Positions 5,994-37,337 of a stretch of 40,629 nucleotides of DNA are shown here, one piece after another. The DNA lies in assembly GCA_009777925.1 (NCBI GenBank), contig WRKX01000009.1, forward strand, positions 1 through 40,629, in the 5' to 3' direction. The notes under the pieces are model-generated. The model did not search any database. It was not told the origin of the DNA and saw only the letters and a program-made list of their open reading frames with translations. Both the position numbers and the translations under genes were made by a program. This stretch comes from Betaproteobacteria bacterium. Lineage in GTDB: Bacteria > Pseudomonadota > Gammaproteobacteria > Burkholderiales > Rhodocyclaceae. How positions within the stretch are numbered: the first letter of the stretch is position 1; each line of letters begins with the position of its first letter.

Positions 5994-6306
5994 GATCTAA
6001 TCCTTGTTTCATTCGCTCGCTTTCAGGAATGTCGGCATATGTCCATGACCCAAAGCGCCAAGGGGCAAATACCAGCAAATCACCCCAATAAATTTTCATC
6101 ATTACCCTGATGATTATCAACGATGAAATCAATATCTGCAATGCTTTCCAAGGTTTCCACGCTTGCCTAGCTTCCGGTTTGCGACTGCCCAAACCTTATC
6201 CAACATGTGCCGTTCATGTCAGTGGACGAGCAGGCGCGCGCCTTGAAAAAATCCCATCCACCCCCATCTCCTTTTTCATCTTTTATCCTGAAGGGAGAAA
6301 CACCGT

Positions 6307-8214
6307 ATGACCAGCAAGGAAACCCTGGGCTTCCAGACCGAGGTGAAGCAGTTATTAAACCTCATGATCCACTCGCTCTACAGCAACAAGGAAATTTTTC
6401 TGCGAGAGCTTATTTCCAACGCCTCCGACGCCTGCGACAAACTGCGCTTTGAGGCGCTCAACAATACCGTTCTGTATGAAGGCGATGGCGACCTTGAGAT
6501 TCATGTCAGTTTTGACAAGGCGGCGCGTACCGTCACCGTAACTGATAACGGCATCGGTCTTTCCCGCGAAGAGGCAATCCTGCATTTGGGCACTATCGCC
6601 AAATCAGGAACCCGCGAATTCTTCAGCGCCTTGACGGGCGACCAGGCAAAGGACGCGCATTTGATCGGCCAGTTCGGGGTGGGTTTTTATTCTTCCTTCA
6701 TTGTAGCCGACCGGGTAACGGTAATTTCCCGCCGCGCGGGTCTGCCTGCCGACCAGGCAGTGCGCTGGGAATCAGGCGGCGAGGGCGATTTTTCCGTGGA
6801 AATGACGGAAAAGGCCAGACGCGGCACGGAAGTTACCTTGCATCTACGCGAAGGCGAAGACGGCTTTCTCGACAACTGGCGCTTGAAATCCATCATCCGC
6901 AAGTATTCGGATCATATTTCCATGCCGATCAGAATGGCGGGCGAGAAATGGGATGAAGAAAAAAAGGAAATGATTGCGAGCGGCGAAGACGAGACGATCA
7001 ATCAGGCAAGCGCCCTGTGGACGAGAAGCAAGGCCGACATCAGCGAAGAACAATATCGGGAATTTTACAAACATGTCGCGCACGACTTTGAAGACCCGCT
7101 CGTCTGGACGCACGCCAGGGTTGAAGGCAAGCAGGAATACACGCAACTGCTCTACATCCCTTCCCGCGCCCCGTTTGATCTTTGGGATCGCAAGGGGCGG
7201 CACGGCATCAAGCTCTATGTGCGGCGCGTGTTCATCATGGATGACGCGGAAAAGCTGATGCCGCTTTATCTGCGCTTTGTGCGCGGAGTGGTGGATTCCG
7301 CCGATCTGCCGCTCAACATTTCCCGCGAAATTCTGCAGGAAAGCAAAGATATCGAAAGCATCCGCAACGGCTGTGCCCGCAAGGTGTTAACCATGCTGGA
7401 AAACATGGCGGAAAATGAGGACGCTACCGAAAAGGAAAAATACGCGCAGTTCTGGGGCGAATTCGGCAAAGCTCTAAAAGAAGGGGTCGGCGAAGATTTT
7501 GCCAATCGGGAAAAGATCGCCGGTCTTTTGCGTTTTGCCTCGACCCACAGCGATACGCCGGATGAGACAGTCGGCCTGAAAGACTACATCGCCCGGATGA
7601 AAGAAGGACAGGAAAAGATTTACTACATTACGGCGGATACCTTCAAGGCCGCGCAGAACAGCCCGCATCTGGAAATTTTCCGCAAGAAAGGCATTGAGGT
7701 GCTGCTTCTCTCCGACCGGGTAGACGAATGGGTAGTCGGGCATCTGACCGAATTCGACGGTAAGCCCCTGCAATCCGTCGCCAAGGGCGGTCTTGACCTG
7801 GGCAAGCTGGAAGATGAGACGGAAAAGCAGGAAGCTGAAAAGGCAGCCGATGAATTCAGGGAACTGCTCGAAAAGGTGAAAAAATCTCTGGGCGAAAGGA
7901 TCAAGGAAGCAAGGGTCACGCACCGCCTTACCGATTCTCCCTCCTGTCTGGTGACGGAAAACTTCGATATGTCCGGCAATCTGGCGCGTATTCTGAAGGC
8001 CGCCGGACAGGACGCGCCGGACATCAAGCCCATCCTGGAAATCAATCCACGCCATCCGGTAGTGGAGCGCTTGAAACAGGAAGAAAACCGCTTCGACGAC
8101 TGGGCAGCCCTGCTCTTTGAACAGGCCGCCCTTGCCGAAGGCGGCCAGCTCGAAGACCCGGCAGGATTCATAAAACGCATGAACGACCTGATTCTGGCGC
8201 TTTCGGGGCAGTAA
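6307..8214 (+). CDS. htpG: Hsp90-family chaperone HtpG
   Basis: [85 protein letters not shown]. Confidence 0.98.
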
Positions 8215-8233
8215 TCAGAGGACAGTGGACAGG

Positions 8234-8253
8234 AATCAGGAGTGTTCCTGATT
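8234..8253. terminator. Hairpin AATCAGGA-GTGT-TCCTGATT after htpG
   Basis: Perfect 8-bp stem 20 bp after htpG stop; no long U tract. Confidence 0.35.
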
Positions 8254-8591
8254 TCTGTACTCTGCACGAGCATTCCGGCAAGTCTGGGTGTCTCAAGGAA
8301 AAACTGGTATGCAATAACACAGCGGAATAATCAGTCTTGCAGACGGCAATTCAGGGCGCTATAAATCGCGCCCCTACGGGCAAGGCCGTATGCCGGAGGC
8401 GTAAGCTGGGATGAAACAAAGTAGAATCCCAGCTTTGATACTACTGCGTTGAGGTTCGTATCCTACTCACCACAACTAATTCCATTTTCCTTTCAAAAAG
8501 GCAAGAATTAAAGGCCGTTATTCTCGTGAAGGCGGGAATGGCGGTGAGTATTCTTGTCGTCTCGAGGTAAAAATAGAATAACAACTATCGC

Positions 8592-9344
8592 TTATTCTTT
8601 ATTGTTTTCCTGGTGGTCAACTGCGGCTTTTAGGTTGAGATCTTCAGCAACCGTTACCGCAATTCCAGACGCAGCATCGCTTAATGCAGTAGCCGCTTTC
8701 TCCGGATCAGACATAAGTGTGCCAAAGTCACTAAAGGTTACCTTTGGTGGAGAATACCGCCATCCTCCAGCATTAGGCAGCCAGCCTGTCGCATGAAAGC
8801 CACGGTAAAGAGGTTCTTTTCGATCTTCACCAAAAAGTGTCAGTACAGCCGTAATGGTTGGCAAATAGCCACTGGTAGCACTCGTAGAGATAAAGCCTAT
8901 GGTAGTTGGCGCAACTACTAGTATGGCATCTGCGTTGGAGGTAATTTTTTCAAATTCAATCTTAAATCCATTATCGATTTCTTCCCAAGAACCTTCTTCC
9001 ACTTTGGCATCAAACCCTTGGTATGCCAATTGGGTTGCAATACTCTGAGCGAGGGTATCAGAAGTCGGAGTTTCATTTTTTTCCTTGATAGCTTGAGTAA
9101 GCAGCTCTTGCTTTTTGTATTGATCAGCTATTGCTATCATTCCCCCGATAAAACCAAATGCCCTGCCAAGATGGAAGAAGTCATATACGGTGTAAGTTTT
9201 TGGTTCTGGCGAACGAATAACAGCGACTGTCTTAACATTGGTGAGAGTGTTTGGCGAAATATCAATTTTTGGAACTGGGCTGGCGCACCCAGAAATTAAA
9301 GCTATGGTTGCAATTGCCAATAAAGACTTAACCGATGAAAACAT
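8592..9344 (-). CDS. Lipoprotein of unknown function
   Basis: Lipobox-like LLAIATIALISGCASP; plausible start 9344. Confidence 0.65.
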   Translation of the reverse strand: MFSSVKSLLAIATIALISGCASPVPKIDISPNTLTNVKTVAVIRSPEPKTYTVYDFFHLGRAFGFIGGMIAIADQYKKQELLTQAIKEKNETPTSDTLAQSIATQLAYQGFDAKVEEGSWEEIDNGFKIEFEKITSNADAILVVAPTTIGFISTSATSGYLPTITAVLTLFGEDRKEPLYRGFHATGWLPNAGGWRYSPPKVTFSDFGTLMSDPEKAATALSDAASGIAVTVAEDLNLKAAVDHQENNKE

Positions 9345-34549: not shown

Positions 34550-34644
34550 TATAGTGCTTTTCCTAAATAATCTTACTCTATCAACCTTCAGACATCCTAT
34601 CCAGCAAGCGAGAAAGGGTAAAAATAATTACGAGAAGCACTATA
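34550..34644. repeat. 95-bp MITE-like element A (TATAGTGCTTTTC...GAGAAGCACTATA)
   Basis: About 20-bp terminal inverted repeats; same length and ends as element B. Confidence 0.8.
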
Positions 34645-34673
34645 GACGGCTGTGTTCCTATAGGAAATTTAAA

Positions 34674-35060
34674 ATGGACAAGATTGACGATCTGAGAAGA
34701 AAGAGAAAGCGGGCGCATAAGCAACTTCAGGAACTCAAGTCGCCCGTATACGACATCTTTCTCAAAATGGAGCAGGCCACATACTCCGATGGCGCTTTGT
34801 CCAGGAAACACAAAGAACTGGTGGCTGTTGGAATCTCGGTAGTCATCAATTGCGAATCGTGCATGGAGTGGCACATCACCCAGGCCGCGCAAGCGGGCGC
34901 AACAGAAAAAGAAATCCTCGAAGCCATCGAAGTAGGCATTGAAATGGGCGGTGGGCCGGCGACGGCCTACGCCCGATTTGCCTTGGAGGTTATGGAAAGA
35001 GTTTGCCACGACAGAGACGCCGGAAATGAAGCAGCCGTCTATAGTACTTTCCGCAAATAA
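34674..35060 (+). CDS. AhpD-like / carboxymuconolactone decarboxylase family protein
   Basis: KELVAVGISVVINCESCMEWHITQAAQAGATEKEILEAIEVGI (CxxC..H motif). Confidence 0.88.
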   Translation: MDKIDDLRRKRKRAHKQLQELKSPVYDIFLKMEQATYSDGALSRKHKELVAVGISVVINCESCMEWHITQAAQAGATEKEILEAIEVGIEMGGGPATAYARFALEVMERVCHDRDAGNEAAVYSTFRK

Positions 35061-35134
35061 AAGTACGCTAATTCAGCGACGAAAGTAGTATCATCTGGAC
35101 ACTTAGCGTCCTTTTATCTACGAAAAGCACTATA
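35040..35134. repeat. 95-bp MITE-like element B (TATAGTACTTTCCG...CGAAAAGCACTATA)
   Basis: Terminal inverted repeats matching element A. Confidence 0.8.
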
Positions 35135-35240: not shown

Positions 35241-35576
35241 ATGTCCTACACCATCGCATACTACAATGCCTCCGTGCAGGCAACCATCGAAGAATGGCCA
35301 ACAGGCATCAGTGCCAGCTATGTGCGAATCGTGGAGCAGATGGTAGTGTCCGGGCCGAACCTTGGCTTACCATACACGCGCCCCTTTGGCGATGGCCTGT
35401 TTGAGATTCGCGCCAAGGGAGAGGAAGGTATCGGACGCGCGTTCTTCTGCTCCTTGAGCTCCTTGATAGGGCGGCGCATCGTTATCCTACACGGCTTCAT
35501 CAAGAAGACACAGCAAACCCCGCAAAAGGAATTGAAACTCGCCCGCAGGCGTTTGAAGGAGGTACTCAATGACTAG
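35241..35576 (+). CDS. RelE/HigB-like (phage Gp49-like) toxin
   Basis: LPYTRPFGDGLFEIRAKGEEGIGRAFFCSL...IVILHGFIKKTQQTPQKELKLARRRLKEV. Confidence 0.88.
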   Translation: MSYTIAYYNASVQATIEEWPTGISASYVRIVEQMVVSGPNLGLPYTRPFGDGLFEIRAKGEEGIGRAFFCSLSSLIGRRIVILHGFIKKTQQTPQKELKLARRRLKEVLND

Positions 35577-35898
35577 AAAAATCGAAACCGAAGAAGGCTA
35601 TCAGCCGGTGACGTTCGACCCAAAATCCCATGCTGCGAAAAAACGCGAGGCCGATCCAGTTTTTCGCGCCGCCTACGATGCGCTCGAAGACGAATTCGCG
35701 GCGCTGGCCGCGCTGCTTGCCGCGCGCAAGGATGCCGGTCTGACCCAAGCCGATGTGGCCGCCCGTATGGGTGTTTCGCAGCCTGTGCTTGCTCGCATCG
35801 AATCAAGTCTGGGCAGCCGCAAGCATTCGCCCTCTCTCGAAACCCTTAGGCGCTACGCTGGAGCCTGCGGGAAAAAACTTGTCATTCAAATGGTATAG
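35569..35898 (+). CDS. XRE-family HigA-like antitoxin
   Basis: HTH LTQADVAARMGVSQPVLARIES; overlaps toxin gene. Confidence 0.88.
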   Translation: MTRKIETEEGYQPVTFDPKSHAAKKREADPVFRAAYDALEDEFAALAALLAARKDAGLTQADVAARMGVSQPVLARIESSLGSRKHSPSLETLRRYAGACGKKLVIQMV

Positions 35899-36017
35899 CC
35901 CCGGCAGGCAGGCATTGCGCGTCCGATTGATCTTGCGCCTGATTTTGCGCTCAAGCAGATAGCCTAAGCTTAGGCGGGTTTGCAGCTTGCCTTGCACATT
36001 ACAACAGCCGCCCCATA

Positions 36018-36114
36018 CTATTCACCCGGCAATTAAGGGTTGCATCATATTTGCCATTTCGGCCCATATGGGGCGTGCCTCGAAAAGTCAAACCTTAATT
36101 GCCGGTTCAATATT
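36018..36114 (-). repeat. 97-bp dispersed palindromic element, copy 2 (inverted relative to copy 1)
   Basis: Reverse complement near-identical to 12458-12554. Confidence 0.85.
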
Positions 36115-37324: not shown

Positions 37325-37337
37325 TTCTCTTGTCGCT

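Follow-up and report, generated by a model that had tools for sequence, protein, structure and literature searches.

The window, by which we mean the whole stretch of 40,629 nucleotides analysed, is contig 9 of a genome of 2.47 Mb in 175 contigs. It carries a small, peroxidase-like gene of the ahpD type between two short elements, A and B. The features discussed below are these.

34550-34644, no strand assigned: MITE element A, 95 bp with the TA on both sides (mobile unit of 93 bp plus TA)
34645-34652, plus strand: one arm of an 8-bp inverted repeat, GACGGCTG, directly inside A
34674-35060, plus strand: ahpD-like gene, carboxymuconolactone decarboxylase/AhpD family with CxxC, now 128 aa
35032-35039, minus strand: other arm of the repeat, GACGGCTG on the reverse strand, in the last ahpD codons and directly before B
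35040-35134, no strand assigned: MITE element B, 95 bp, of a subfamily other than that of A
35040-35060, plus strand: YSTFRK and stop codon supplied by B (its first 21 bases)
84-114, no strand assigned: fragment of a MITE end, isolated and close to the start of the contig, 87% identical over 31 bp to one end of a third subfamily, tip at 102-114
Same genome, locus L303 (G000:C3:6000-25999), about 7220-8788 and 6211-6279: integron whose intI-like gene is interrupted by a copy of A

Both elements, 95 bp each, were found where the first-pass annotation had placed them. The tips of A are TATAGTGCTTTTC and GAGAAGCACTATA, and those of B are TATAGTACTTTCC and GAAAAGCACTATA; the tips quoted earlier were broadly right, with two positions off in the left tip of B and one in the right tip of A. 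A repeat finder recovered the inverted arms of A (33 nt, 79% complementary) together with an inner and an outer repeat between A and B. Short, without transposase and bounded by terminal inverted repeats, A and B have the make-up of MITEs. RNA folding of the subfamilies of A, B and the third one (C) gave hairpins with z of about -3.8 to -9, and the predicted hairpin of B could also influence the 3' end of the ahpD mRNA. Either tip of B presents stop codons in all three frames. More generally, the tips of A, B and C lead to stops when entered in frame, except in one frame of A (plus strand) and one frame of C. A similar end had also been proposed at 104-117; the tip is real (102-114), but it belongs to an isolated stretch of about 31 bp and not to a full element.

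Counts of the elements rest on searches of the genome, from which 63 distinct elements were collected with their flanks. With up to two mismatches, the single-tip pattern TATAGTGCTTTTC matched 116 times on one strand of the genome and 117 times on the other; its reversed control matched 37 and 42 times. A tip-to-tip pattern with 80-110 bp allowed found 76 intact elements, against none for the reversed control. The repeat is real and far beyond chance. The annotation had held that its reading would fall if the ends recurred nowhere else; they recur in about 76 elements.

The length was 95 bp in 62 of the 63 collected elements and 94 bp in the other. About 49 belong to the subfamily of A, 10 to C and four to that of B, a count that takes in one element left unassigned by the keyword test. 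Element A had 41 matches in the genome, with 93-99% identity for its full copies (94-99% to the window copy in a second comparison), and the approximately 49 distinct copies collected for its subfamily are each 95 bp long. Four more full copies of B were found, at 86-89%. The three subfamilies differ in their cores and yet are 95 bp long nearly without exception, which suggests that transposition imposes a constraint on length. Judging by their sequences, several copies are situated within transposase-like reading frames (the intI case alone was tested against families). Pairs are often clustered, with seven adjacent pairs less than 700 bp apart among the 50 elements listed. At several loci the MITEs have in common a flank resembling AACAAAAACCGC or AACCCAAAACCGC directly at one tip but are unlike in the flank at the other. 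Another interspersed repeat (ATTCACCCGGCAATTAAGG...), found in the window at 35990-36110, also adjoins several MITE copies elsewhere in the genome.

We searched 150 genomes for the element. It was missing from 19 of the 20 congeners, and the nearest congener had one divergent element of 83 bp, which indicates a lineage-specific burst. One further genome gave two unrelated-looking matches. Among the 21 genomes of the genus, the burst is limited to this species; by its sequences, it is a young, species-level, lineage-specific MITE amplification.

The TA at the ends had been taken as a sign of an IS630-like origin. A search of the same genome for the DDE_3 family gave 27 matches. One of them is on contig 62, within an element of 944 bp that shares its tips with the MITEs, and the second reading frame of this element matches DDE_3 and, above the curated cut-off, NF033545 (NCBIfam IS630 family transposase). 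The right 27 bp of B are identical to the first 27 bp (left end) of the 944-bp element (27/27). Compared with the two ends of this element, the ends of A and C have 19-24 of 27 positions in common, and the right-hand 20 bp of A match its right end at 95%. The proposed origin was thus borne out by shared tips, an IS630 DDE transposase and the end of B, and we classify A and B from these similarities as non-autonomous IS630-type elements, that is, MITEs. The contig-62 copy is the sole full-length one and may be inactive, because two frame changes (read from the frames) are needed to join its transposase parts. A copy on contig 31 is 98% identical over the first 241 bp, where the contig ends. Judged from these sequences, the transposase was likely active in the recent past.

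The target site could be read at another insertion of A, one that interrupts an ISAs1-like transposase repeat in two of its copies. The flanks of that A, joined with a single TA, match 13 uninterrupted places at 93-97%. Twelve of these 13 places were fetched and all align gap-free through the junction, the filled site reading CTGCA[TA-element-TA]AACCC and the empty one CTGCATAAACC. Hence the target is TA, it is duplicated upon insertion, and the mobile unit is 93 bp; the TA targeting proposed earlier holds at this site. At the ahpD locus itself we infer the insertions of A and B, no allele with one or no MITE having been found.

The product of the ahpD-like gene matches PF02627 (E=5e-19) and TIGR00778 (ahpD_dom) over the cut-off, and its CxxC reads CESC, as expected of a CMD/AhpD family member. 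Its frame ends ...AAV-YSTFRK, and the final seven codons (six residues and the stop) are the first 21 bases of B, as the annotation had observed. When B and one TA are cut from the window, the TAA stop is restored; with A and B each cut out with one TA, the protein has 122 aa and ends ...NEAAV. The closest relative comes from a MAG labelled Rhodocyclaceae (L135) and is 84% identical over residues 1-109. This homolog has 122 aa, ends ...PEAHGV, and its stop aligns with the restored stop of the window. In the comparison of C-termini that the annotation had called for, the closest orthologs are without the YSTFRK tail, so the same C-terminus was not found in genes lacking the element. The restored 122-aa frame, with its stop aligned to that of L135, means that B most likely entered the ahpD stop codon (TA/A) and supplies YSTFRK and the stop; the product before B would have been 122 aa. 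At the other end of the gene, the open frame of A runs in frame with ahpD, which is why mechanical ORF calling carries the frame out to 34554. At the threshold of the promoter scan, neither A nor B contained a promoter-like site, and MITE A was rejected as the ahpD promoter on that ground.

Upstream of A lie a Na+/H+ antiporter gene and a small ORF, which we take to be YjfB-like, both syntenic with the nearest congener. Synteny reaches CAGAACCG, one base before A, where other DNA follows in the congener, and it resumes at 37336 in the window. The entire interval between A and the next conserved gene is replaced; it measures 2.8 kb in the window and 4.8 kb in the congener. The comparison marks the block from A to 37336 as a variable region. 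An exact break at the left edge of A was not upheld, as other gap settings carry the alignment past it, although that extension is not significant. No simple empty site for the variable region was found among the genomes compared. Close homologs of ahpD are scattered across bacteria and archaea. Within the family, there is one in 1 other of 399 genomes, and the congeners have relatives only at 31-40% identity; this patchy occurrence makes it likely that ahpD was gained by transfer in this lineage. The variable region also holds a Gp49-like/HTH toxin-antitoxin-like pair (35241-35898), of which other genomes in the family have copies at 73-90% DNA identity. In two other genera of this family the copies have 86-90% DNA identity and similar edges, so the pair is probably mobile. 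It was rejected as a cassette: the homologs at 73-90% have similar edges, but an attC is not evident in them. Just downstream of the pair, at 35935-35976, is an attC-like stretch, GCCTGATTTTGCGCTCAAGC, which matches an attC-like site of the genome at 18/20 and is followed by the palindrome GCCTAAGCTTAGGC.

We propose the following course of events. An IS630 relative of this genome would supply the transposase, which would recognise the TATAGTGCTTTTC-like tips of A and B and paste the MITEs into TA dinucleotides, these being duplicated. The MITE family amplified recently in this lineage. The lineage probably acquired ahpD, and two MITE insertions would then have occurred independently around it: A a short way upstream, at 29 bp from the start codon, and B in the TA of the TAA stop codon. 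Translation of ahpD would now run six codons into B (YSTFRK) and halt at B's own TAA. The damage to ahpD would be mild because the tip of B has stop codons in all three frames. We infer the transposition in trans by the IS transposase and the order of the A and B insertions; AhpD presumably still works. We put the probability of the whole account (trans-mobilised IS630-type MITEs, two independent insertions around ahpD, B in the stop codon) at roughly 85%.

To the first-pass annotation the locus looked like a MITE-flanked single-gene cassette. As a mobile unit, the 585-bp A-ahpD-B block would have arrived as one composite, the transposase acting on the left tip of A and the right tip of B as in TIME-COMPs. 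The outer tips are indeed inverted copies of each other, perfect over 13 bp (91% over 22 nt), and both the patchy occurrence of ahpD, with its close homolog in just one other family genome, and the fading of synteny from the position of A onward would suit such an arrival. On the other hand, A and B belong to different subfamilies and each is complete by itself. Only one copy of the block exists: its own genome holds no second one, just ahpD paralogs at 33-34%, and no empty site for it was found in the nearest congener. Furthermore, the replaced interval exceeds the block, and removal of B alone restores a stop aligned with that of the ortholog, which indicates that B entered beside a native gene end and fits separate insertions of A and B. 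A composite single-gene transposon was rejected on the copy number, the empty site and the subfamilies, and we consider arrival as a unit unlikely.

Two separate insertions leave one observation unexplained, and it counts against them. The inner flanks had been described as inverted repeats, and the repeat is real (34625-34652 versus 35032-35059; 28 nt, 82% complementary), but the GACGGCTG/CAGCCGTC it takes in lies outside both elements and is no part of them. Among 24,741 pairs of TA 150-700 bp apart in the window, the inner flanks are complementary over at least eight bases in seven, including this one (2.8e-4); given seven neighbouring MITE pairs, the chance of the 8-bp repeat is roughly 2 in 1000. 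As a target motif, GACGGCTG was rejected, since none of the other collected MITE flanks begins with it. With the MITEs removed and the TAs restored, the flanks read CCG-TTAGACGGCTG ... CAGCCGTCTAA-TTC, and this restored repeat led us to test whether ahpD is an integron-type gene cassette, with A and B each landed in one box. The boxes would be GTTAGAC, which fits GTTRRRY, and GTCTAAT, which fits RYYYAAC with one mismatch. In keeping with this, the genome has the integron listed above, attC-like sites, and the attC-like stretch downstream of ahpD. Its intI-like ORF matches TIGR02249 (E=2e-41, the tested piece being below the full-length cut-off), and from its interruption by the A copy the integrase looks inactivated. 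Two attC-like sites (57 and 69 bp) lie upstream of the intI-like gene and a third on contig 127 (L127:300-362). However, the attC scan, which finds two sites beside intI, finds no complete one after ahpD or elsewhere in the window. No partner boxes come after the ahpD stop. An attC site does not predict five of the eight bases that match, and the sites of the genome itself have GTTAGGC. With boxes that fit only partly and attC absent, the integron cassette was rejected, and we judge it quite improbable. A long shot is that ahpD is an integron-type or other cassette, with 11-bp inverted ends (TTAGACGGCTG/CAGCCGTCTAA), at a non-integron site, that IS630-type MITEs then landed in both boxes and that another copy split the integrase; if true, such MITEs would insert preferentially at the recombination sites of integrons and lock cassettes in position. 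Finally, virtually no credence can be given to chance repeats or a YSTFRK tail native to the gene: the tail is short and the C-termini of the AhpD family vary in length, but full-length copies of B exist elsewhere, its end shares 27 bp with the IS, and the orthologs end without the tail.

The case documents a young, species-specific burst with an identifiable IS630-type source and proven target duplication, and three subfamilies holding almost exactly one length. It also illustrates cleanly that an element with stop codons close to its tips can insert into the stop codon of a gene and do little harm. Known principles are left unchanged by it.

Several known systems resemble the one described here. 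The Correia/NEMIS elements have ends of the TATAG type. Presumably only the outermost bases of these agree with A and B. The Correia/NEMIS elements (CREE) of Neisseria have TA-type termini with target duplication, measure 105-155 bp, form stable stem-loops and have been found fused to reading frames, and in these traits they are like A and B (PMC2229807). RUP of Streptococcus pneumoniae (107 bp), which goes with IS630-Spn1, is present in about a hundred similar copies (PMC2229807). Like the family of A and B, it is about 100 bp long, has terminal inverted repeats in common with an IS630-type element of the same genome, targets TA, and has many similar copies and insertions in transposase genes (PMC2229807). 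The likeness is drawn from descriptions; the host is another, three 95-bp subfamilies are present here, and one copy provides the stop codon of a gene, RUP being intergenic by its description. By analogy, then, the present system would operate like RUP with IS630-Spn1, and it resembles the Correia elements.

TIME-COMPs are genes bounded by two Tn3-type MITEs (PMC13367494). Here too a gene, ahpD, lies between two MITEs, but TIME-COMPs have two copies of one MITE and evidence of movement, neither of which is shown for A-ahpD-B. QMITE2 of Coxiella burnetii and RU-1 of enterobacteria are MITEs that, at the 3' end of a gene, supply its last residues and remove the normal stop (PMC5896051, PMC2759123). 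B does the like at the 3' end of ahpD, although these are other MITE families and B adds six residues only. That MITEs shape gene ends is already known, and the ahpD case is a clear, recent and ordinary one.
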